A stretch of DNA of 64,000 nucleotides from Anaerovibrio sp. JC8 (GTDB lineage Bacteria > Bacillota > Negativicutes > Selenomonadales > Selenomonadaceae). The notes beneath the pieces were generated by a model. That model worked only from the letters and a program-made list of their open reading frames with translations. It was not told where the DNA came from and ran no database searches. Both the position numbers and the translations under genes were made by a program. This document shows positions 18,269-40,321 of the stretch, in pieces. How positions within the stretch are numbered: position 1 is the first letter of the stretch; the number at the start of each line of letters is the position of its first letter. Location of the stretch: NCBI RefSeq assembly GCF_002100115.1, contig NZ_ANBM01000010.1, positions 1-64,000 on the forward strand. Direction: 5' to 3'.

Positions 18269-18414
18269 TTATAACGCCATTGTTCAAATTTTTCTTCTTT
18301 AGAAGAAAAATCATCCAATTAGCGTTTCAACGAGCAGGGAGATATGCTCACCAGCTGTTGTAGTTTGTTTTCCCCCACCTAAAGAGGAAGGGGACATCTT
18401 AAAGCTCGTTATAA
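18269..18414 (+). repeat. 146-bp structured element, copy 1
   Basis: Copy 1 of a pair with 23,306-23,451. Both are 146 bp, are highly similar and have the inverted ends TTATAACG and CGTTATA. Inside, AACGAGC (18329-18335) pairs with GCTCGTT (18404-18410). That helix encloses two hairpins, one with the CCCCCACCT arm (its partner is mismatched in this copy). The element ends about 20 bp before the next start codon, so it could also act as that gene's leader. It is either a non-autonomous mobile element or a structured RNA. Confidence 0.75.
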
Positions 18415-23305: not shown

Positions 23306-23451
23306 TTATAACGCCATTGTTCAAATTTTTCTTCTTTCAGAAAAAAAATCTTCCAATTAGCGTTTCAACGAGCTGGGAGATATGCTCGCCAGCTGTTGCA
23401 GTTTGTTTTCCCCCACCTAAAGAGGTGGGGGGCATCTTAAAGCTCGTTATA
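23306..23451 (+). repeat. 146-bp structured element, copy 2
   Basis: Second copy of the element at 18,269-18,414, with identical length and the same TTATAACG...CGTTATA ends. Here the inner hairpins are perfect: AGCTGG/CCAGCT, and CCCCCACCT-AAAG-AGGTGGGGG. The closing helix AACGAGC/GCTCGTT is at 23366-23372 and 23442-23448. A T-rich tract follows and no gene is nearby. Confidence 0.75.
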
Positions 23452-23572
23452 TTTTTTGTAATAGATTGGATTTTAAATCGTATGTATAGACAGGAAACAA
23501 CAAAAAACCACTTTTTATCATAAATGATAAAAAATGGCTCTCCTTACATACTCTCTCATGAGCGGGTTCCCC

Positions 23573-30086: not shown

Positions 30087-30179
30087 AACTCCATTGACAC
30101 ATAATTATAATATGCTATACTTTCAGACAAAGTTATATAATCGTTGCCGTATGAAAACATTAGGTTTGGAGTGATTATT

Positions 30180-30680
30180 ATGTTCAGGGAAATGAGAAGA
30201 AAAAACCAGCAGTTATCTGCTGACGAATGTATATCCATATTGGAAAAATCCACCTCAGGGGTGCTGGCCGTATCTGGTGATGATGATTATCCTTATGCAG
30301 TGCCTCTTTCCTTTGCTTATGTTGATAATAAATTGTATTTTCATGTTGCAAAAAGCGGTCATAAGTTGGACGCCCTGCGTAAAAACCCAAAGGCTTCATT
30401 TTGCGTAATAAATCAGGATAACATCGTACCAGCGGAATATACTACATATTTTCGCAGTGTAATTGCTTTTGGCACTGTTCGGATAGTGGAGGACAATACC
30501 GCTCCGGAAAAACGCCTGGCATTGGACATACTTGCAGATAAATACTGTCCACAGGAAACTATTGAAAGCAGAGAAAAAGAAATCGGAAAACTAATGTCAG
30601 CTCTGTATGTGCTGGTAATGGATATTGAACATTTAACAGGCAAAGAGGCTAAAGAACTGGCAGCTACGCGCCCCCATTAA
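30180..30680 (+). CDS. Pyridoxamine 5'-phosphate oxidase-like flavoprotein (NimA-related)
   Basis: 166 aa from ATG 30180 (TTGGAG at 30166-30171). The start MFREMRRKNQQLS... and GVLAVSGDDDYPYAVPLSF are typical of the NimA-related FMN-binding split-barrel family, some of whose members reduce nitroimidazoles. A second, more distant member lies at 37,707. The function here is unknown; resistance cannot be inferred. Confidence 0.88.
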   Translation: MFREMRRKNQQLSADECISILEKSTSGVLAVSGDDDYPYAVPLSFAYVDNKLYFHVAKSGHKLDALRKNPKASFCVINQDNIVPAEYTTYFRSVIAFGTVRIVEDNTAPEKRLALDILADKYCPQETIESREKEIGKLMSALYVLVMDIEHLTGKEAKELAATRPH

Positions 30681-31232: not shown

Positions 31233-32435
31233 TCACTTAATCAGCTTCTTGAAGCGCTCGTCTACCCAGTCCCCAACCCTTGAAGCATCTTCATCCTCAA
31301 TGTGGGTGTAAGTATCAAGAGTAATCTGAACATTGCTGTGACCAAGCTGGCCCTGAATATCCTTTACATCGAAGATATGGGACAGCTTCATGCTGGTGGC
31401 CATGTCATGGCGCAGATCGTGGAATCTGAATTTCAAATCTTTCTCCCGGCATATCCTAGAATAAAGGCTGGAGAACACATCCGGGTTATAATACCGCCCG
31501 TCATTGGTGGTAAATACCATTTCCGGATGCTCCCAAGTTTTGGAAGCAAGCCGTATTGCGGCCTGCTTCTTTTTATATTCCATCAGTTTCACACAATAAT
31601 CAGCAGAGAGTTTCAGCTTTCTCACGCTCTTTTCTGATTTGGTCTTGTCAATGTAAATCCTGCGTTTCTTGGTTTCAGGATCCTTGTCACCGATGCCCAT
31701 GGCCTTGTCAATAATAACTGAACCGCCAGTAATCTTGCCATTATCGTCCCGCTTGATGTCGAAGCTGTCCCAGGTCAGGGCCAGCAGTTCGCTCCTTCTG
31801 AGGCCTGTTATATATTCGGTGTATATGGCCATCTGCCAACCATAAAATCCGGCAGGATATTCAAGCAGCGTTTTCCAATCCTCTATAGTAGGCTTAACAA
31901 AAGGCCTCTTGGCTGGCTTCTGGGGAAGCTCCAAAAATTCCGCTGGGTTGTCCACTATAAGATGCTCCTGCCTTGCCCGCTTGAAGGCCTGTTTTATTAC
32001 AGTGCGGAAATACTGACAGGTACGATATTTGTCCGTCCCAATTACCTTGTAAATGACATACTGGAGATCAGAGGTCTGCACCTTGTCCAGCTTCATGTTC
32101 CCAATGGCATTGATGCAGATATCCAGTATTCCCCTGTAGGATACCTGGGTGTTCTCCCTTAACTTTGGAACCTTATAAGTATCGAACCACTTATTCAGCC
32201 AGTCCTTCACGGTCATTTTGTCTGCATCCACATGAAGGTTGTGGGAATATTTTTCCAGCATCTGCTTCACATAGGCCAGGGCTTCCTTTTGGGTTTTGAA
32301 ATACTTTAAAGGTCTGCTTATTTTCCCTGTTTTTGGGTCAACCCCTGCTGTAACCTGTGCCACCCATCTTTTTCTGTCCTCACGATAGAAAACAGTTCCT
32401 TCATTGTGTGCCCGCGCTTTTTTCTGACTTCCCAT
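31233..32435 (-). CDS. int: Tyrosine-type site-specific integrase
   Basis: 400 aa. An N-terminal AP2-like arm-binding domain (GTVFYREDRKRWVAQVTAG) is followed by a SAM-like core-binding domain and the catalytic domain with R (TGLRRSELLALTW, about 212), HxxR (FHDLRHD, about 340) and the C-terminal LGHSNVQITLDTYTH with Tyr near 375. AGGAGG precedes the start. The gene ends 165 bp from the split tRNA-Leu. The spacer holds repeated TGTTGT/GTGTCGAA words, which may be arm-binding sites. Confidence 0.95.
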   Translation of the reverse strand: MGSQKKARAHNEGTVFYREDRKRWVAQVTAGVDPKTGKISRPLKYFKTQKEALAYVKQMLEKYSHNLHVDADKMTVKDWLNKWFDTYKVPKLRENTQVSYRGILDICINAIGNMKLDKVQTSDLQYVIYKVIGTDKYRTCQYFRTVIKQAFKRARQEHLIVDNPAEFLELPQKPAKRPFVKPTIEDWKTLLEYPAGFYGWQMAIYTEYITGLRRSELLALTWDSFDIKRDDNGKITGGSVIIDKAMGIGDKDPETKKRRIYIDKTKSEKSVRKLKLSADYCVKLMEYKKKQAAIRLASKTWEHPEMVFTTNDGRYYNPDVFSSLYSRICREKDLKFRFHDLRHDMATSMKLSHIFDVKDIQGQLGHSNVQITLDTYTHIEDEDASRVGDWVDERFKKLIK

Positions 32436-32535
32436 TCTTTAATGCCTCCTGTCTTGCTTATAAATACTTAATAACCCATATCGTTTTAAAATCTGCCACA
32501 TACACGGCTGAAAAATACCACAAGACCAATAACCG

Positions 32536-32650
32536 TGTGGATAATACCAGATTTTCGGTGGATAACCCCAGAATCCATGTGGATATTACAAAAAAACATG
32601 TGGATAATCCCATTAATCTTGTGGATAATCTGTTAATAAACTGTTGATAA
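32536..32650. other. DnaA-box array with 21-bp phasing (origin-like)
   Basis: Six TGTGGATAA-type words (reverse complement of TTATCCACA) start at 32536, 32557, 32578, 32599, 32620 and 32642. Three are exact, three have one mismatch. A seventh (TGTGGATAG) is at 32737. The spacing of two helical turns would put the boxes on one DNA face. It lies between int and the repressor gene, a common position for element origins. Confidence 0.65.
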
Positions 32651-32658
32651 CTTCAAAA

Positions 32659-32728
32659 AGTGGTACATGTAGTGGTTCATGTAGTAGTACATGTACTGGT
32701 CCATGTAGTGGTACATCTAGTGGCTCAT
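32659..32728. repeat. 12-bp direct repeats (six copies)
   Basis: AGTGGTACATGT-like units start every 12 bp from 32659 to 32719, with changes mostly at two positions. They sit beside the DnaA-box array and look like iterons. On the minus strand they would encode a four-residue repeat, but that frame has no ribosome site. Confidence 0.7.
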
Positions 32729-32832
32729 TATGAACCTGTGGATAGTCGCTAGGCCTTGCAGGGCAAGGGCTCCAGCAACCCCTAATATAATATAAGACTA
32801 TATAAGACAAGACAGTAGTATTAGTAAGCGAG

Positions 32833-33135
32833 TTATTTACCGCCCAGTCCTTCAACAATAGCCATAATATTCTTCTTCTTATCAGGGGACAGCTTCTTTA
32901 TGGCATTGGCTATTTCAGCCACTTCCTTGTCCGGCTTGTAGTCGGCGAGATAATCAAGGGTGGTGCTGTAGTAGTCCGCCATCTTGCATATCATTTCCAG
33001 CGATGGTCTGGCATAATCCCTTTCGTAATTGTTCAGTGTAGATTTGGGAATACCCAGTTCTTTGGCAGCCTCAGCAATGGATAAGCCCTTGCCTTCGACT
33101 CTTAAACTCTTAATTCTTTCACCAAAGGTAGTCAT
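32833..33135 (-). CDS. XRE-family repressor (phage-type)
   Basis: 100 aa. The N-terminal HTH_3 (SIAEAAKELGIPKSTLNNYERDYARPSLEMICKMADYY) is followed by a short charged tail. It is transcribed towards int and divergently from the excisionase-like gene, the standard lysogeny-switch layout. The palindrome TACCA-TAATT-TGGTA (33201-33215) in the divergent region is a likely operator. Confidence 0.88.
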   Translation of the reverse strand: MTTFGERIKSLRVEGKGLSIAEAAKELGIPKSTLNNYERDYARPSLEMICKMADYYSTTLDYLADYKPDKEVAEIANAIKKLSPDKKKNIMAIVEGLGGK

Positions 33136-33200
33136 CAGCTTGTTCTCCTTAAATTTTTTTCATGTTGTTTCGTGTTGTTTCATGTTGTCCGATATCAATA

Positions 33201-33215
33201 TACCATAATTTGGTA
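33201..33215. promoter_or_regulatory. Putative repressor operator
   Basis: TACCATAATTTGGTA, a perfect 5-bp-arm palindrome in the divergent region between repressor and excisionase-like genes. Iterated TGTTGTTTC(A/G)TG words lie at 33162-33190. Confidence 0.5.
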
Positions 33216-33354
33216 CAGTTTGTATAGAGGTGTTTTAAAAAGTGACATAATTTTTGTGGACAGCCCATAGTCCATGTGTTATATTTGTTTCAGAATCAAG
33301 AACGGTTTATTTGGTAATGTATTAGAACCAGATAAACCTAAAAGAGAGGTATTA

Positions 33355-33576
33355 ATGATAATGGAACAGAAAAACCCAATGTTTGTTAGTGTCAAGGACT
33401 TCGTTAAGTATTCAGGACTCACGGAATACTGCGTCCGCAGACTTTTGAGAATAGAGGAATTTCCCAAATTCAGATACGGCCACACTATACGGATTCCACT
33501 GGAAGCCGCCCAGCAGTGGCTTCTGAACAGTCAAGGTACAGATTTGGACACCCTGTACCCCGCTTGCTATAAATAA
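33355..33576 (+). CDS. Excisionase-like small DNA-binding protein
   Basis: 73 aa. The central winged-HTH resembles MerR/Xis-type excisionases: VSVKDFVKYSGLTEYCVRRLL and FRYGHTIRIPLEAAQQWL. AGAGAGG at 33343-33349 supports ATG 33355. It is divergent from the XRE repressor and near int, as expected for xis. Confidence 0.78.
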   Translation: MIMEQKNPMFVSVKDFVKYSGLTEYCVRRLLRIEEFPKFRYGHTIRIPLEAAQQWLLNSQGTDLDTLYPACYK

Positions 33577-33608
33577 CCATGGCAAGGGGAAAAACAAGGG
33601 GCTGGATT

Positions 33609-33920
33609 ATGGAGCTGAAAGAGTTTTACATTACCCACAACTCCGACAGGATAAGCCCCAATGCTCAGGCCATGTGGCACTATCTCATGTATCGTGCCAA
33701 TCAGAACTGGTGGCATTATCCCCTTTGTCTTAATGTTCCCGAAATGGCCTTTGCCCTTAAAATGTCCACTGCCAGTGTGAAGCGGGCCAGGGATGAACTC
33801 ACCAAAAAGGGGTATATTAGGTGGGAATCCCCCGGTGGTGCCAGAGCTGCCAGATATTATATTATGAGCCGGACCGGTTCAAAATATGCAGGGCAGGAAG
33901 AAAAGGAACAAAAAGAATAA
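33609..33920 (+). CDS. Phage-type helix-turn-helix protein
   Basis: About 103 aa. MELKEFYITHNSDRISPNAQAMW... and NVPEMAFALKMSTASVKRARDELTKKGYIRW form a winged helix as found at the N-terminus of phage/plasmid replication initiators (DnaD/RepA-like). No primase or helicase part follows, so it may be a short replication or regulatory protein. ATG 33609 is preceded by AAGGGG; 33579 in frame lacks a ribosome site. Confidence 0.65.
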   Translation: MELKEFYITHNSDRISPNAQAMWHYLMYRANQNWWHYPLCLNVPEMAFALKMSTASVKRARDELTKKGYIRWESPGGARAARYYIMSRTGSKYAGQEEKEQKE

Positions 33921-34047
33921 TACGCGATATATCACCCCCGGAAACAGCCAAAAACTTTTCCTCACTCCTTATATTATTTTATTTAATCGTTTCGTTACGC
34001 AGTGGCTACTTCTGGGGGTATATGTTATATGGAAGGAAATGATAAAA

Positions 34048-34617
34048 ATGAAAGTATTTATAAATCCGGGCCATGCCCCAAATGGCAATCCCGATCCTGG
34101 GGCAATTAACGATTTTTTCAGAATCCGCGAGGCTGATGTGGCCATGGCCATAGGTGAACAAGTGAAGCAATATCTCATAAAAGCCGGATGTGGTGTTAAA
34201 CTTCTGCAGAGCAATAACCTTTATGGGGAAGCTGCTGGAGAAAATATCATCCAGAGTGCCAACGACTGGGAGGCGGATATTTTCGTCAGCATCCACTGCA
34301 ATGCCTTTGATAAAACAGTCCGCGGGGCGGAAACTCTGGTGTATGATTTGACCAGTGACGGCCATGAACTTGGAAAGTGCATCCATGCCCAACTAATTGA
34401 GGAAATGCAGGATATTGACTGCACCTTTCCCGACAGGGGAATTAAAACCCGTCCCCTTCTGGCGGTGCTTCGCTCCACCATTATGCCAGCGGTACTGGTG
34501 GAAACTGCCTTTATAGATAACGACTACGATGCCCTGCTTCTTATGAACCACCAGCAGGAAATAGCCGCCGCCATTGCCCGCGGCATTACTGACTACTGGG
34601 TACAAAAACAAGGATAA
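34048..34617 (+). CDS. N-acetylmuramoyl-L-alanine amidase (Amidase_3)
   Basis: 189-aa zinc amidase. Ligands: H in FINPGHAPNG, E in RIREADV, H in VSIHCNAF; catalytic Glu in VLVETAFI. ATG 34048 is preceded by GGAAGG. There is no signal peptide and no cell-wall-binding module, so it may be a phage-type endolysin or a cytoplasmic form needing a holin. It is followed by the GIY-YIG gene after 5 bp. Confidence 0.88.
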   Translation: MKVFINPGHAPNGNPDPGAINDFFRIREADVAMAIGEQVKQYLIKAGCGVKLLQSNNLYGEAAGENIIQSANDWEADIFVSIHCNAFDKTVRGAETLVYDLTSDGHELGKCIHAQLIEEMQDIDCTFPDRGIKTRPLLAVLRSTIMPAVLVETAFIDNDYDALLLMNHQQEIAAAIARGITDYWVQKQG

Positions 34618-34622
34618 AGCCT

Positions 34623-35471
34623 ATGATCACCACAGCAAAAACCATTCAAATGCTTTTATATGACGGGGATTTAAGCGGGGTTATGTATATTGAGGATACT
34701 TCGTGGCAAATTGGGGCCATGTTTTCATCCCCCAGAGAATCCATTGATGACCTTATCGAAAAGGCGGACTGCAAGCGATACGGGGTCTATCTCCTTTTAT
34801 CCGAGGAACAGGTCTATGTGGGACAGGCCCGGGATTTGGAGAGAAGGACCCGCCAGCACCTTACGGACAAAAGCTGGTGGGACCACATAATCCTTATGAC
34901 CACCAAGGACGACAGCTTCAATGCCTCAGATATTGATTATCTTGAATCCAAGCTGATTGAAAAGGCCAAAGATGTGGGTACCGCCTATGTTGACAACCTT
35001 AAAAACGGCAATCCCCAGAAGGTTACGGCCTTTCGTGAGGTGGTGCTGGGGCGGTATTTGGAAGAAGCCCTGTTTCTGCTGAAACTTATTGGGGTAAATG
35101 TCTTTGAACCCATAAGGAGAAAGCGCACTACTCCGCCCCTTCCCGAAGGAAACCTCTCCGTCAGTGACTTTGTAAAGACCGCCATTATTAACCTTTTGGC
35201 TGCAGGGTATGTGTTCAGTGATGAACAGCTAAAATTATATGGCTCCGTGGAAGGAAGCAAGGAATATACCCACCGGGCCCTGCCTATTCTTTGGCTACTA
35301 AAAGACGGGGAATCCCGGGAAGATGTGAAAAAGAAAATCCGCCAGCGGTACTGGAAGGATGTATTTTCCAGCGGCACCCAGCGGTTTCTGATGTTCTCCC
35401 AATGGTTCAGGGACGGCACCAATTACGGTGCCCATAAGGATGATTTTATTCGCTGGTATGGGAATCTTTGA
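34623..35471 (+). CDS. GIY-YIG nuclease-family protein
   Basis: 282 aa. An N-terminal segment of about 50 residues precedes a GIY-YIG domain (YGVYLLLSEEQVYVGQARDLERRTRQHL) with the conserved Arg and the downstream Glu in DIDYLESKLIEKA. The C-terminal half resembles the DUF4357-containing GIY-YIG proteins found widely in bacteria. The role is unknown; repair or defence is possible. It probably shares a transcript with the amidase. Confidence 0.82.
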   Translation: MITTAKTIQMLLYDGDLSGVMYIEDTSWQIGAMFSSPRESIDDLIEKADCKRYGVYLLLSEEQVYVGQARDLERRTRQHLTDKSWWDHIILMTTKDDSFNASDIDYLESKLIEKAKDVGTAYVDNLKNGNPQKVTAFREVVLGRYLEEALFLLKLIGVNVFEPIRRKRTTPPLPEGNLSVSDFVKTAIINLLAAGYVFSDEQLKLYGSVEGSKEYTHRALPILWLLKDGESREDVKKKIRQRYWKDVFSSGTQRFLMFSQWFRDGTNYGAHKDDFIRWYGNL

Positions 35472-35658
35472 AAAAAGAAGGATATTTTTAACCAATGTTG
35501 AATATATACCATGCTGGGCGGATAGCCCAGATTGCAGATTTTTCATAACATTTCCTGCATTTTCCATTATCGCAGGAGCTTTTGCCGGTAGTATTTGCCG
35601 GCCCTTTTTTTCCGGTAACAAAATGGCTTACATTTTTTTTGACACAGGGGGTACAATT

Positions 35659-36018
35659 ATGTTTGATAATTTTAAGAAAAATGTAACCAAAAACGACATC
35701 AATACGATTATAGATAAGGGAACAACTATAAAAGGCGACATCAACGGCGAGGAAAATATGCGGGTTGACGGCACCATTGAGGGAAATATCAATCTGGGCG
35801 GCAGTGTGTATATTGGTGAATCAGGCTGTGTAATTGGAAATATTACGGCAAAAGACCTTACTATATTTGGTGTGGTGCGAGGTAATGTGAATATCAGCAA
35901 CCGCCTGTCTATCTGTGCCCGTGGCCAGCTTGAAGGAGATATGATTACCAGCAGCCTCAATGTGGAGACCGGGGGCCAGTTCAATGGCTACAGCAAAATG
36001 ACCGTTTCCCTGGCTTAA
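35659..36018 (+). CDS. Bactofilin (polymer-forming cytoskeletal protein)
   Basis: 119 aa. Core of beta-helical repeats: GTTIKGDINGEENMRVDGTIEGNI, then GSVYIGESGCVIGNI and TIFGVVRGNV, each rung about 17-20 residues with V/I at inward positions. Bactofilins polymerise without nucleotide and localise wall enzymes, which fits the amidase 1 kb upstream. AGGGGG at 35646-35651 supports ATG 35659 over the longer frame. Confidence 0.92.
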   Translation: MFDNFKKNVTKNDINTIIDKGTTIKGDINGEENMRVDGTIEGNINLGGSVYIGESGCVIGNITAKDLTIFGVVRGNVNISNRLSICARGQLEGDMITSSLNVETGGQFNGYSKMTVSLA

Positions 36019-36145: not shown

Positions 36146-36314
36146 CGAGCCCACAGCTTATCCACAAAGCTATTCACAGCTGTGTATTGTTTTACATCAT
36201 TTTAACCAAAGGCTCTGTCTTTTAAGGCGGAATTGTGTATTGTTTTGTTACATTTGCTCTTGTAAGGATAGAGGCATCTATGGTAAAATTATTTTATGCT
36301 ATAATTTCACTCTA

Positions 36315-36377
36315 TTTTGCTGACTCCCACGCCAGCAAAAAGGGGAGCTGCATTCTGTCGCAGCTCCCCGTTTTTTT
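36315..36377 (+). ncRNA. Two-hairpin small RNA-like unit A
   Basis: TTTTGCTG-actcccacgc-CAGCAAAA, then the terminator GGGGAGCTGC/GCAGCTCCCC with TTTTTTT. Upstream promoter boxes: TTGTAA/TAAAAT and a further TATAAT at 36300-36305. The first loop carries CUCCC, complementary to a Shine-Dalgarno core. It also ends the convergent lipoprotein gene. Confidence 0.55.
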
Positions 36378-36383
36378 ATAAAT

Positions 36384-36887
36384 TTATTTTACGCTGAAAT
36401 CATGCTGGCAATAGTATTCGTCGTGATACCCATCAGGGGTTCCCTTCTTACGATACCATTTATTGGACAGCCCTGCCAAAGTACTGTTATCCATTTTCTC
36501 CATATCCAGATTCCTGGCGGCATCCCGATACAGCCTGTATTTGGCAACCCTTTCAAAATACTTTGTACCATAAAGAGGATTTGTGTGTTCCACGCCAATC
36601 ACGACCTCGATATACTCAAATTTCATATTACGATATTCTCTGGAATAGGCCTTCTTAAACATCTTGGCCGCCAGATCGTCGCAATAATCCTCCGTAGGAT
36701 AATCAACGGACTCCAAAATCACCTCATAAAATGGCTGACGAAAATTTATGTTAATATGGTAGAATTTGCCATTATCCAAAGCCACCTTGTCAAGGGCATC
36801 CTCCAAAGGTACTGAACCGCATCCGGCAATAAGAAGCGCAAGGACACAGCATAATATTAAAGTAATTTTCCTAAATAATTTATGCAT
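36384..36887 (-). CDS. Putative lipoprotein, unknown function
   Basis: 167 aa from ATG 36887 (AGGAGG 8 bp upstream; the in-frame GTG 36896 overlaps it). Signal peptide with lipobox LIAGCGS (Cys about 23), so it is probably membrane-anchored on the outside. The mature part is mixed alpha/beta with many Tyr and Arg. No recognisable family. Confidence 0.78.
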   Translation of the reverse strand: MHKLFRKITLILCCVLALLIAGCGSVPLEDALDKVALDNGKFYHININFRQPFYEVILESVDYPTEDYCDDLAAKMFKKAYSREYRNMKFEYIEVVIGVEHTNPLYGTKYFERVAKYRLYRDAARNLDMEKMDNSTLAGLSNKWYRKKGTPDGYHDEYYCQHDFSVK

Positions 36888-37010
36888 CCCTGTCACCTCC
36901 TATAAATTCCTCTGCCACATATTTATTTTTTTATATATGTTCTATATAGTATGTTAAAAATCCTTTATTCTTTGTTTGATGAAATAGTTGCACCATGTAA
37001 CCGCATGTGT

Positions 37011-37097
37011 TAAAATTCATTATAGTAAAATTTTATTCCAATTCTGCTGGGGCTCCACTCCAGCAGTCCCTAAAGCCAGTCCTCCAACTGGCTTTTT
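37011..37097 (+). ncRNA. Two-hairpin unit B
   Basis: Hairpin 1: CTGCTGG-ggctccact-CCAGCAG (37044-37066). Hairpin 2: GCCAGT-cctcca-ACTGGC plus TTTTT (37075-37097); the loop CCUCC is an exact anti-Shine-Dalgarno word. A candidate promoter is TTGCAC (36988-36993), 17 bp, TAAAAT (37011-37016). Confidence 0.6.
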
Positions 37098-37135
37098 GAA
37101 ACCTTCCTAATTTATGTAAACACAATATAGGCACT

Positions 37136-37189
37136 CCTGCTGGTCCCCACACCAGCAGGGAAAGAGGCTGGTCTTTGACCAGTCTTTTT
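37136..37189 (+). ncRNA. Two-hairpin unit C
   Basis: CCTGCTGG-tccccaca-CCAGCAGG, then GGCTGGTC-ttt-GACCAGTC with TTTTT. The loop of hairpin 1 is C-rich (UCCCC). Promoter boxes are not clear. Confidence 0.6.
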
Positions 37190-37257
37190 CATTTTTGTTA
37201 GAATAATACTGTTCTGATAATACATTATAGTTATAGTAGTGACATATCACTCCTTTC

Positions 37258-37275
37258 GCCGGCCTTATGGCCGGC
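37258..37275. other. Hairpin D within the two-hairpin cluster
   Basis: GCCGGCC-TTAT-GGCCGGC, a strong stem without a T run; it lies between units C and E, upstream of E's promoter. Confidence 0.5.
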
Positions 37276-37300
37276 ACTTCTTTGCTTATTGTAAATACAG

Positions 37301-37397
37301 TTGTAAGACATAACCTTATATGATAAAATTCATTTATACCATTCCATTTGCTGGTCCACTCCAGCAAATACTAAGCCGGTACTCCATGCCGGCTTTT
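37301..37397 (+). ncRNA. Two-hairpin unit E with promoter
   Basis: Promoter TTGTAA (37301-37306), 17 bp, TAAAAT (37324-37329). Hairpin 1: ATTTGCTGG-tccact-CCAGCAAAT (37346-37369). Hairpin 2: GCCGG-tactccatg-CCGGC with TTTT. Confidence 0.65.
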
Positions 37398-37436
37398 CCC
37401 AGAATATAAAATTTTCTACATATACTCTCAACACTC

Positions 37437-37492
37437 CTGCTGGTTCCCTCCAGCGGAGAAAAAGCTGGTCCTACGCTCAGGCCAGCTTTTTT
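37437..37492 (+). ncRNA. Two-hairpin unit F
   Basis: CTGCTGG-ttccct-CCAGCGG, then GCTGGTC/GGCCAGC with TTTTTT. The first loop is UUCCCU. Confidence 0.6.
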
Positions 37493-37504
37493 CTTGCCTG
37501 AAAT

Positions 37505-37625
37505 TTGCGCCAGGCAACTTTCTTATGGTAGAATATCCGCATATTAGAATACTTACTTACACAGATTCCCCGTGGGGTACCAGAGCCCTACGGGGGAAAG
37601 GGCCGGTCTTAGGACTGGCTTTTTT
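37505..37625 (+). ncRNA. Two-hairpin unit G with promoter
   Basis: Promoter TTGCGC (37505-37510), 18 bp, TAGAAT (37529-37534) in the context TATGG. Hairpin 1: TCCCCGT...ACGGGGGA (37567-37597); hairpin 2: GGCCGGTC-ttag-GACTGGCT with TTTTTT. It is nearly identical to unit H, on the far side of the next gene. Confidence 0.65.
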
Positions 37626-37706
37626 CAATGTCCATATATGGTATAATGTCGCTACATATAATAATCAATATCCCACTTGTTGATGAATATATTGGAGGTA
37701 TGAACT

Positions 37707-38174
37707 ATGCGCCGTAAAGACCGCGAAGTAACTGATTTAACAAAGATTACAGATATTCTTAACCGCTGCAACACCATACGACTCGGTATTCATGGCACAG
37801 ACTATCCCTATGTTGTTCCACTATCTTTCGGACTGGAAATTATCGACAATACACCTATTGTCTATTTCCACTGTGCCCAAGAGGGACTAAAAATCGAACT
37901 ACTGGAAAAATCCCCAAATATTTGTGTGGAAGGGGATATTTTTCACAAAGTAGAAAAAACAGAAAATGGGATCACTACCCGTTATGAAAGCATTATTGCT
38001 CAGGGTAAATGCGAATTTGTAACAGCCCCTGATGAAATAAAGCATGGACTCCGCCTTATCAACCAACATTACGGTTACGATGATTACCCATTGGAGCGGT
38101 GTAAGGGGCTTGCTCATTTAAAGATTGGAAAAATAATACTCCATAAAATCACTGGAAAACGAAATCTTGCTTAG
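37707..38174 (+). CDS. Pyridoxamine 5'-phosphate oxidase-like flavoprotein (NimA-type)
   Basis: 155 aa. MRRKDREVTDLTKITDILN... and RLGIHGTDYPYVVPLSFGLE are the N-terminal FMN-binding split barrel of the NimA-like family; YFHCAQEGLKIELL is the second conserved segment. Promoter: extended -10 TATGGTATAAT at 37637-37647, and AGGAGG-like GGAGG before the start. It is flanked by twin hairpin units G and H. It shares only the fold with the 30,180 gene. The substrate is unknown. Confidence 0.85.
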   Translation: MRRKDREVTDLTKITDILNRCNTIRLGIHGTDYPYVVPLSFGLEIIDNTPIVYFHCAQEGLKIELLEKSPNICVEGDIFHKVEKTENGITTRYESIIAQGKCEFVTAPDEIKHGLRLINQHYGYDDYPLERCKGLAHLKIGKIILHKITGKRNLA

Positions 38175-38181
38175 TTTATAT

Positions 38182-38240
38182 TTTCCCGTGGGGTACCAGA
38201 GCCTTACGGGGGAAAGGCCAGTCTATGGACTGGCCTTTTT
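38182..38240 (+). ncRNA. Two-hairpin unit H (terminator of the NimA-like gene)
   Basis: TTCCCGT...ACGGGGGA with the same GGGGTACCAGAGCC inner sequence as unit G, then GGCCAGTC-tatg-GACTGGCC plus TTTTT. It begins 8 bp after the stop codon, so it is at least the 3' end of that mRNA. Confidence 0.7.
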
Positions 38241-38343
38241 GCATTGGCAAAATTAAAGGAGCCGCCCATGGGCAGCTCCGTGTGTGTATTTGAGAACATT
38301 CGTTAGAATTGCATTTCAAATTCTACTTAGAAGGGTGTATTGT

Positions 38344-38789: not shown

Positions 38790-39160
38790 GTTGGAAAAAT
38801 TATAGCATGATGTGGCAGTTCTTGCTATCAATTTATGGGTGGGATGTATGCCGGGTGGTGGGGCGGCGCTCTCTTTCCGGGTCTGTGTGCTGCCCCGTCG
38901 TCCGGCTGCGACGGGAGTGAAACGACATAGTCCCTTCAGGGAGTGGGGGCGACGCGAGCAAAGCGAGCTAGTACCCGAAGGGTAGGTCCCGAAGGGTAGG
39001 TCCCGAAGGGTATTCTGGGCGGAGGGCGGGGTAGACCCGTGAGGGATAGCTGGCACGAGTGGACATCTTACTTTCGATAAATGTGGTTATCGGAACCATT
39101 GGCCCCCGGAGCATAGCCAGGCGTTCCGATAACCTCTCCGGCGTTTATCGGAAGTAAAAT
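38790..39160. repeat. GC-rich non-coding stretch with 14-bp repeats and nested palindrome
   Basis: Three 14-bp units of the type GGTCCCGAAGGGTA run from 38971 to 39012. At 39069-39157 a nested inverted repeat pairs TTACTTTCGATAAA with TTTATCGGAAGTAA and, inside it, GGTTATCGGAAC with GTTCCGATAACC, which would extrude a cruciform. No gene is credible here. Confidence 0.65.
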
Positions 39161-39479
39161 GGCCTGCCTTATGAGGTTGGAGGCTCCTTCCCAGATGCCA
39201 AAAACGGATGCCAAGAAGGTGGCTCCGGCCCATACTCATAGGCCCACACTTGGAGCTGGCACCAAGAAACATGACTACAATGTATCAAAAAAATGTGCTG
39301 AAAATTGGCTTAATTTTACTGTACAATTAGGTCATGTATAGCAAATTAAAAACTGTACAAAATGGTATTATGTGCAAAAATGTACAGCAGAAAACCCTAT
39401 GTATTGTGGCATCAAATACTGGAATGTACAGAAGAATATAGGCTAACAGCAGGAAGTAAAAACCTTATACTATAAAGTC

Positions 39480-40210
39480 ATGTATTGGAAGGCCTTGGTT
39501 CGTTCCCGGCTTCGGGGCCTCGTGGGGGCCCAGGGAAGCCGTACTTTATTGCGTGGCCATGCTCTGGGGATTTCCGCTTTAAATGGCTTCTGCTGTGGCA
39601 GAAGCCGTCCTTCCGCGGAGGGTGAGGCTATGGCTTGCCATGGCCTCATCTTTCGCTACTCTCTGAGATATGGCTGGAACTTTTTTCCGGGGGGAGGATA
39701 TAGCCCAGCTTTGATGGGATATATGCTACCCTCCGGGGCCGACACTTGGAGAAGTGGTTTTGGCAGTGCTGCCGCCCCAGATAAAAAAGTGGTAGCTCTG
39801 CCTCTACTGGCCCTATAGTAGGCACTGGCCAAAATACCGACTGCTGTGTATGGGTTCTGCTTGCAGGTTCCATGCTCTGCTGTTCGGGTCATCACTTAGA
39901 GTCGGGGTAAGCGGTGACTGCTTGCAGTGACCGCAATACTAGCCCAGTAGTTGGCACTGGACCACCTTCCGGCGGCTGGGTATGCTCCCAGCTTTCTTCA
40001 GATACTGTCAGGGCTTTTCATGGCATAGCCGGAATCCGTGATGTAGGCATGACAGGGAAAGACCTGGGGCCAATGCTGCTGGGGGTATACTCTGCCGTCC
40101 GGGGCACCTTCTCGAGTCGGTGTTTCAGACGCTGGAGGTGGCTGACCGCACGTATGGGAGGTCTGACACCGCAAGCGGCTCACTTCAATCAAGGCACCCT
40201 AGTTTTTAAG
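39480..40210 (+). ncRNA. Candidate large structured non-coding RNA
   Basis: About 730 bp, clearly more GC-rich than its neighbours, with only unconvincing reading frames on both strands. Strong local hairpins include GGCTTCTGC-TGTG-GCAGAAGCC (39585-39606), GGCTATGG/CCATGGCC (39626-39645), a long arm CCGG...GGAGGATATAGCCC with GGGATATATGCTACCCTCCGG-type partner (39687-39736), GCGGTGACTGC-TT-GCAGTGACCGC (39911-39934) and GCTGGG/CCCAGC (39975-39992). This density fits a large ornate RNA class, but I cannot assign one. Confidence 0.4.
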
Positions 40211-40257
40211 AGTGTGGGTGGTCTCCTTTTATTATATAGGGCACACAATATTACTCA

Positions 40258-40300
40258 TTGCTGTTCCCACACCAGCAAAAAAAAGGCTGGTCACTGGTCT
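40258..40300 (+). ncRNA. Degenerate two-hairpin unit I
   Basis: TTGCTG-ttcccacac-CAGCAA followed by GGCTGGTCACTGGTC and a run of nine Ts. It resembles unit C with a deletion that destroys the second stem. Confidence 0.45.
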
Positions 40301-40321
40301 TTTTTTTTGCCCAAAACTAAA

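Follow-up and report, generated by a model that had tools for sequence, protein, structure and literature searches.

Among the described systems closest to the locus reported here, the csRNAs of streptococci comprise several short, CiaR-dependent small RNAs (sRNAs) per genome, which are diverse in sequence but have a promoter design in common; they form two stem-loops and carry anti-Shine-Dalgarno (anti-SD) or anti-start sequence in their unpaired parts (PMC3091779). The Listeria sRNAs LhrC1-5 are a multicopy set with four members at one locus, whose C-rich loop and terminator-loop motifs bind a Shine-Dalgarno region; as described there, the copies are virtually identical, have three UCCC motifs each, and depend on LisRK (PMC4132741). 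NmsRA and NmsRB of Neisseria are tandem intergenic sRNAs, structurally alike and with putative anti-SD sequences (PMC5362039). A structured-RNA survey covering motifs of the Negativicutes does not name Anaerovibrio in its main text (PMC8632094). We found no paper on sRNAs of this genus, since papers containing both terms lack the genus in title or abstract, a statement that concerns Anaerovibrio and leaves other Negativicutes aside.

We analyzed a stretch of 64,000 nucleotides from Anaerovibrio sp. JC8 (contig NZ_ANBM01000010.1, positions 1 to 64,000; hereafter the window), in which a first-pass annotation had read a tandem cluster of two-hairpin units as an unannotated multicopy sRNA family recalling LhrC and the csRNAs. 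This likeness stands as analogy and not as homology; the repeat and the nonamer of the csRNAs are absent, and LhrC differs in copy identity and motif layout. Like the csRNAs, the Anaerovibrio units are several, short, diverse, and two-hairpin in build, with a promoter design that is partly common (units B and E). Unlike them, they have the pattern GTTGY-N5-RYAAC plus TGNTANAAT, and their arrays are tandem and island-linked. The CiaR repeat TTTAAG-N5-TTTAAG is found at none of the units, the window having a single one-mismatch match at 39,298 (minus strand) with 4.7 expected by chance, and the csRNA element [A/C]UCCUAAA[A/C], searched as an exact pattern, has no match in the window. In contrast to LhrC, the units are diverse and two of them (G and H) are devoid of C-rich loops; in the folds read, no unit combines UCCC in first loop, linker, and terminator loop. 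NmsRA/NmsRB differ in being two copies only, 70% identical, in an unrelated host. Within Rfam, only a tRNA in the window exceeded its gathering cut-off; the best sub-threshold match was frnS, an RNA different from NmsR, at 32 bits (cut-off 60). Of the general traits of multicopy sibling sRNAs, the presence of several homologous units with intrinsic terminators and promoters of their own is seen at sequence level, the promoters being restricted to promoter-like sequences of A, B, E, and G. We regard the array as a putative new, genus-restricted multicopy sRNA family, outside the csRNAs and LhrC though analogous to them.

Architecture of the array

In the window, the predicted fold of units A, B, C, E, F, G, H, and I comprises two hairpins followed by a T-run, bearing out the plan of two hairpins with a terminator that had been proposed for them. 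In the predicted units, ~60-90 nt long, a single-stranded 5' leader is followed by the first hairpin and then by an intrinsic terminator. In comparison with dinucleotide shuffles, all eight units except I have folding z-scores between -5.3 and -6.9; folding of unit I is weaker (z -2.65). Two models were built, R1 trained on 17 E/C units and R2 trained on eight class G units; window units A, B, and C as well as L028A, L028B, L043B, and L035 of the relatives were aligned and then omitted from R1 training.

Unit A (36305..36376, plus strand, as are all units below) is a candidate two-hairpin sRNA with the first loop ACUCCCACGC and a z-score of -6.0, reaching just 23.0 bits with R1. Unit B (37023..37097) is composed of the leader UUAUUCCAAUU, hairpin 1, and a terminator hairpin, the second loop of which had been given as CCUCC and is folded as CCUCCA, an anti-SD-like sequence. 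Unit C (37120..37191) has single-stranded GGCACUCC in its leader and two hairpins. Although outside the R1 training set, both were recovered by this model, B with 41.8 and C with 53.4 bits. Unit D (37216..37285) is degenerate; its counterpart in relatives is longer, with its own -10 box and a CU-rich spacer. Unit E (37336..37398; leader AUACCAUUCCA) scored 72.1 bits, and the class-C-type units F (37421..37492; loop UUCCCU) and I (40241..40309; leader ACACAAUAUUACUCAUUGCUG) scored 56.7 and 49.1 bits, all three being part of R1 training. Unit G (37541..37627) joins the leader UAUUAGAAUACUUACUUACAC to a G-rich stem with the loop ACCAGA and reached 96.9 bits with R2; unit H (38160..38242) has class-G hairpins without the class-G promoter and reached 78.4 bits, both being in R2 training. 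Unit H lies directly 3' of a PNPOx-like gene (37707-38174) and is probably the 3' end of that gene; class-G-like hairpins behind a gene also occur in genome G011.

The first hairpins share an almost invariant GCUGG/CCAGC stem. The literal form TGCTGG-loop-CCAGCA, presented earlier as common to the units, is found within the window in B, C, and E only, with variants in A, F, and I. Units G and H fall outside, their first loop being ACCAGA; for the same two units the claim of a C-rich first loop throughout does not hold, and the plan is less uniform than claimed. The bare pattern is not rare, occurring at 14 places genome-wide, 11 of them outside the units. Diversity among the window units is considerable (61% mean column identity, six units).

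A unit J proposed at 23.57 kb folds, yet was matched by neither model in the genome (R1 E-values up to 0.5, R2 up to 0.01), and we do not count it as a family member. Near this site (23400-23460) and at 18362-18413, the window contains copies of a CCCCCACCTAAAGAGGTGGGGG-hairpin repeat, which is also located directly before a unit at C5:77622 of the same genome (L122) and has more copies at loci L106, L116, L159, and L160. A further hairpin, TGCTGGTCCATTCCTCCAGCA, with a class-E-like loop, was observed outside the window at C5:66145-66165 of the same genome.

A strict scan for two hairpins plus T-tract, which misses units A, E, and I, counted 32 units over an 800 kb sample of the own genome, with a maximum of 2 per 1.4 kb per strand. 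The same scan gave 5 units in the window, corresponding to B, C, G, H, and the terminator of F joined to the next hairpin. The array is denser in two-hairpin units than the 800 kb comparison sample of its own genome.

Conservation within the genus Anaerovibrio

A DNA search with positions 36,980-37,680 against 100 genomes (own included) revealed strong matches in five genomes of the genus (G004, G006, G008, G013, and G015) and short weak matches in six more genomes. Close homologues of the array are found in A. lipolyticus DSM 3074 and LB2005, Anaerovibrio sp. RM50, and two MAGs. The order E, class-C unit, G recurs at loci L017, L018, and L020; D precedes E at L020 and L033; and L028 hosts a near-identical copy of unit A, a lipoprotein gene, and further units. 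The eight class E units, from six genomes, all keep the extended -10 box; their leader ATACCATTCCA and hairpin-1 stem are kept as well, invariant or nearly so, and the terminator stem is variable with its pairing preserved. The class G leader TATTAGAATACTTACTTACAC is conserved, H excepted, and the class-C leader ends in ACTCC in seven of nine members and in ACTCA in I and L038. The class-C first loop is not C-rich in five of the six units from relatives. Between E and the next class-C-type unit, all seven pairs have a distance of 31-40 nt.

Base-pair counts were obtained from structures written by hand from the folds. The aligned stems contain 41 G-U cells versus 0 A-C in class G and 34 versus 5 in E/C; as G-U counts as a pair only in plus-strand RNA, this bias identifies the plus strand as the RNA. 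The R1 structure is 95.6% paired, with both sides changed in 8 of 16 pairs. Covariation in E/C was matched by none of 500 shuffles on four of five measures, the fifth being reached by 71 of 500; class G covariation alone was no better than that of shuffles (258/500).

A model search in further genomes had been named as a check of the family, and its outcome is in favor of it. R1 was searched against 16 genus genomes and 184 others. Its 29 matches with scores from 32.9 bits upward fall within 6 of the 16 genus genomes, own included (G000 6, G004 2, G006 2, G008 2, G013 8, G015 9), with none in the 184 others; above 31.7 bits, R1 matches in the genomes searched are confined to the genus. Weak matches (E <= 0.01) of at most 31.7 bits occurred in 30 of the 184 outside genomes. 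They were rejected as family members, the eight loci inspected being plain terminators without the GCUGG/CCAGC hairpin. R2, searched against the 16 genus genomes and 104 others, gave matches at E <= 0.01 in 7 of the 16 (G011 included) and in none of the 104. Both sets of E-values are rough owing to short calibration, and searches over more than 40 genomes ran with stricter filters and few candidates scored. The 18-base E pattern was present in seven stretches of genome contigs titled Anaerovibrio (five genomes) and in five titled otherwise, the latter being taken as chance matches of a bare 18-mer. A viral origin or spread was likewise discarded: the leader patterns of E, C, and G had 1, 0, and 0 matches in viral contigs, the single one without the hairpin. 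As far as searched, the putative family is confined to part of the genus Anaerovibrio.

Promoters and a shared upstream pattern

A plain consensus promoter scan of the region returned 8 sites versus 7.2 expected and was without enrichment. Read unit by unit, extended -10 promoters were recognized at A, B, E, and G, with P values against shuffled upstream regions of 0.03, 0.065, 0.01, and 0.025, respectively; C, F, I, and H have no clear -35/-10 pair by the same comparison (P 0.44, 0.80, 0.16, and 0.97). The promoters of A (36260..36305, plus strand; TTGTAA-18-TAAAAT, TG-extended, with a second TGCTATAAT just 3' and the same in L028A) and of E (TTGTAA-17-TAAAAT) agree with the earlier reading. 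The one claimed for G is present (37505..37534, plus strand), with its exact form re-read by us as TTGCGC-18-TAGAAT, the scan itself having picked GCGCCA-16-TAGAAT; the class-G promoter is TTGCCC-17-TAGAAT in three relatives. Unit B, left out of that reading, has a promoter too.

The promoters of B and E have in common the pattern GTTGY-N5-RYAAC-N6..9-TGNTANAAT, with two inverted arms over the -35 region. It takes the form GTTGC-N5-GTAAC followed by TGTTAAAAT at B (36987..37016, plus strand) and GTTGT-N5-ATAAC followed by TGATAAAAT at E (37300..37329, plus strand). These are the only two exact matches in the own genome, with 0 expected in the window. Relatives have 13 exact matches, in G008, G013, and G015; the other 12 genus genomes have none, including G004 and G006, which yet have arrays. 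Outside the genus, 5 matches were found in 84 genomes, and a reversed-pattern control gave 1 match in 100 genomes. Within the genus, 14 of the 15 matches sit 10-79 nt 5' of a same-strand R1 match (four of these being weak, 19.7-20.3 bits, and B-type by sequence), and the fifteenth precedes a D-type leader. Taken without the -10 box, arms at spacing 5 show no over-representation in 864 kb. The arms are kept while the N5 spacers differ, which suggests that they are a putative binding site of a regulator; common descent may also account for the likeness of the copies. The HTH gene of the adjacent island was considered as the source of this regulator and rejected, as its upstream regions in five loci, examined by eye, lack GTTGC-N5-GYAAC.

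Proposed pairing with translation start regions

The start regions belong to 774 ORFs, called with a simple script in 864 kb of the 2.68 Mb genome, two of the 40 sampled stretches having been picked since they held a match. An SD match of 4 or more is found at 87% of the 774 called ORFs, and Hfq is encoded in the genome (110 bits). The fit of 16 unpaired segments to every second start region (387) was compared with 100 shuffles per segment, with segment 5' ends assumed from -10 boxes where a box exists. The 16S tail served as positive control, and none of its 100 shuffles was as good.

The C-rich first loops had been proposed to act on GGAGG leaders, and this proposal is unsupported for five of the six units: for A, B, C, E, and I, the first loop showed an ordinary fit, no better than that of shuffled loops (33, 15, 44, 23, and 91 of 100 as good). 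The first loop of F was borderline (4/100). Among the 16 segments tested, and uncorrected for their number, a better fit was obtained for the class-C leader (0/100 shuffles as good in relatives, 1/100 in the window), the terminator loop of B (1/100), and the terminator loop of E (2/100 in relatives, 19/100 in the window version). The leaders of E, F, I, and G displayed no general start-region fit (12, 46, 57, and 86 of 100). Target prediction against ribosome binding sites, suggested along with the original reading, favors the C leader and the terminator loops of B and of the relatives' E over shuffles, most first loops being unremarkable. Anti-SD pairing is plausible for some units, via parts other than the first loops.

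On the level of single targets, the best ones by energy were mostly no stronger than those of shuffles (E 26/60, C 20/60, F 2/60), and an unusual exact start-region match was absent in six of seven leaders. The leader of unit I contains an exact 16-nt complement of the start of a gene encoding a macB-like ABC transporter (L143, 12470), equaled by 1 of 20,000 shuffles, and 12 of the 16 bases are kept in G008 and G015. The match of class-C leaders to macB spans 9 nt in G008; of three G015 units, two have 9 nt and one has 7 nt. For the 9-nt matches, 7, 17, and 24 of 2000 shuffles were as long. The match is not above chance in G004 and G006, nor for window units C and F. As a lead, the macB-like start would be the best target candidate for the class-C leaders.

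It is quite unlikely that the sRNAs act mainly on protein, as decoy or sponge, or on other sRNAs instead of mRNA starts. The almost invariant GCUGG/CCAGC stem is odd for pure antisense RNAs and several leaders are without anti-start-region fit, but the C leader and the B and E terminator loops beat shuffles at start regions, and the loops are C-rich and not of the GGA type to which CsrA binds.

Island context and leader peptides

The array is located just beyond an integrase-HTH-amidase-GIY-YIG-bactofilin module (31233..36018, no strand assigned). This module encodes a tyrosine integrase (minus strand), an HTH protein (minus strand), excisionase-like and small proteins, an amidase, a GIY-YIG protein, and a bactofilin; the HTH and excisionase-like assignments are sequence readings, the others Pfam matches. 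Homologues of the amidase and the GIY-YIG protein are found near arrays at L144, L146, L148, L149, and L156 (RM50, LB2005), with an integrase homologue also at L148, L149, and L156. Window positions 38800-40240 contain 1.3-1.4 kb without a convincing gene, having 54% G+C versus 46% in the genome sample and pieces of 73-95% identity at array loci L144, L146, L148, L153, and L154. For this stretch, which may be a repeat or represent a large non-coding RNA, no Rfam match above cut-off was obtained. An identical 46-base palindrome occurs at L122 (7671-7716, own contig C5) and at L159 (16147-16192, RM50), in each case within the terminator hairpin of an sRNA-like unit; its presence in two species is like that of a small mobile element. 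The window protein at 30144-30680 has strong similarity to nitroimidazole-reductase (Nim) families, though below cut-off (202 bits, with cut-offs of 260-270).

Double-glycine-leader and Nif11-leader peptides are abundant in the array neighborhoods of the relatives. Using our own pattern, 32 leader-motif peptides were counted in 173 kb at 16 of their array loci (L151 and L160 being left out of 18), and the 800 kb sampled from the own genome contained 3, which lie together in one 20 kb stretch that was chosen for holding the unit at C5:77622. Beside this unit, genes for Nif11-leader, double-glycine peptides form a cluster at C5:76114-79856 (in L122). The unit adjoining this cluster is the only R1 match above 30 bits in the own genome outside the window. 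The units might regulate these RiPP-like peptides, which crowd the same islands; this is doubtful, and we put forward a functional link between array and leader peptides only as a hypothesis. Besides the abundance of the peptides at the relatives' arrays, it draws on a leader common to the L155 and L161 units (promoter pattern present), which pairs with Nif11 starts such that 14 of 1000 shuffles are as good. However, this leader is one of ten segments tried, 19 of the 774 other starts pair equally well, and the window's own leaders have no special fit to Nif11 starts. Moreover, the leader motif has no match in the window and none at 6 of the 16 loci, and G004 and G006 have arrays without a match to the Nif11 query.

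Discussion

The central proposal of the first-pass annotation, an unannotated multicopy sRNA family, is sustained by homologous arrays, conserved -10 boxes and leaders, the G-U bias, the promoter pattern, and the lack of an Rfam match. Judged by its sequence, the cluster very probably makes small regulatory RNAs. As a whole, we favor, with some reserve, the explanation that the units are tandem independent sRNA genes of a multicopy family present in part of the genus Anaerovibrio.

A very improbable alternative is that the units are intrinsic terminators in tandem, or what remains of lost genes, devoid of an RNA function of their own: an intrinsic terminator does end every unit, H and class-G-like hairpins in G011 and G013:C7 lie directly behind genes, D looks degenerate in the window, and genes stand between some units (A and B are separated by a lipoprotein gene, and in DSM 3074 a 59-codon ORF separates the class-C unit from G), but the -10 box, leader, and first hairpin of class E are better conserved than its terminator, the class C and class G leaders are conserved, the promoter pattern is found solely at units in the four genus genomes having it, and the gap of just 31-40 nt from E to the class-C-type unit in all seven pairs has no room for a lost gene. 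Together with terminators that vary yet still pair and the G-U strand bias, the conservation within class E argues for RNA genes and against leftover terminators. A picture of terminators after lost genes only, which would have spoken against the proposed family, was not seen at the loci inspected in relatives.

For tandem independent sRNA genes, we propose the following mechanism. The units are very likely transcribed as separate sRNAs, and F may be made through read-through from E. They would then pair in trans with translation-start regions, mainly via the 5' leader or the terminator loop and probably with Hfq, a step for and against which we see equal weight; the pairing parts would be ACUCC/ACUCA in the class C leader and CUCC in the terminator loop of B and E. 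That one regulator, acting at the GTTGY-N5-RYAAC arms over the -35 region, switches several units jointly is a tentative assumption, held slightly short of even. A wider scenario, speculative and rather unlikely in our view, is that mobile islands carry a diversifying sRNA repertoire, in which one promoter-operator module (GTTGY-N5-RYAAC / TGNTANAAT), a common hairpin-terminator frame, and varied 5' seed leaders have been amplified into arrays and singletons alongside double-glycine and Nif11 families. One regulator would thereby fire a seed bank tuning island peptide genes, the macB-like transporter, and other host starts.

For a rumen lipolytic genus having named strains, these data offer candidate sRNA genes, along with predictions of their 5' ends and a shared promoter pattern. 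At the same time, the array would be an example of an sRNA family in which close species differ in the number of copies and in the sequence of the leader.
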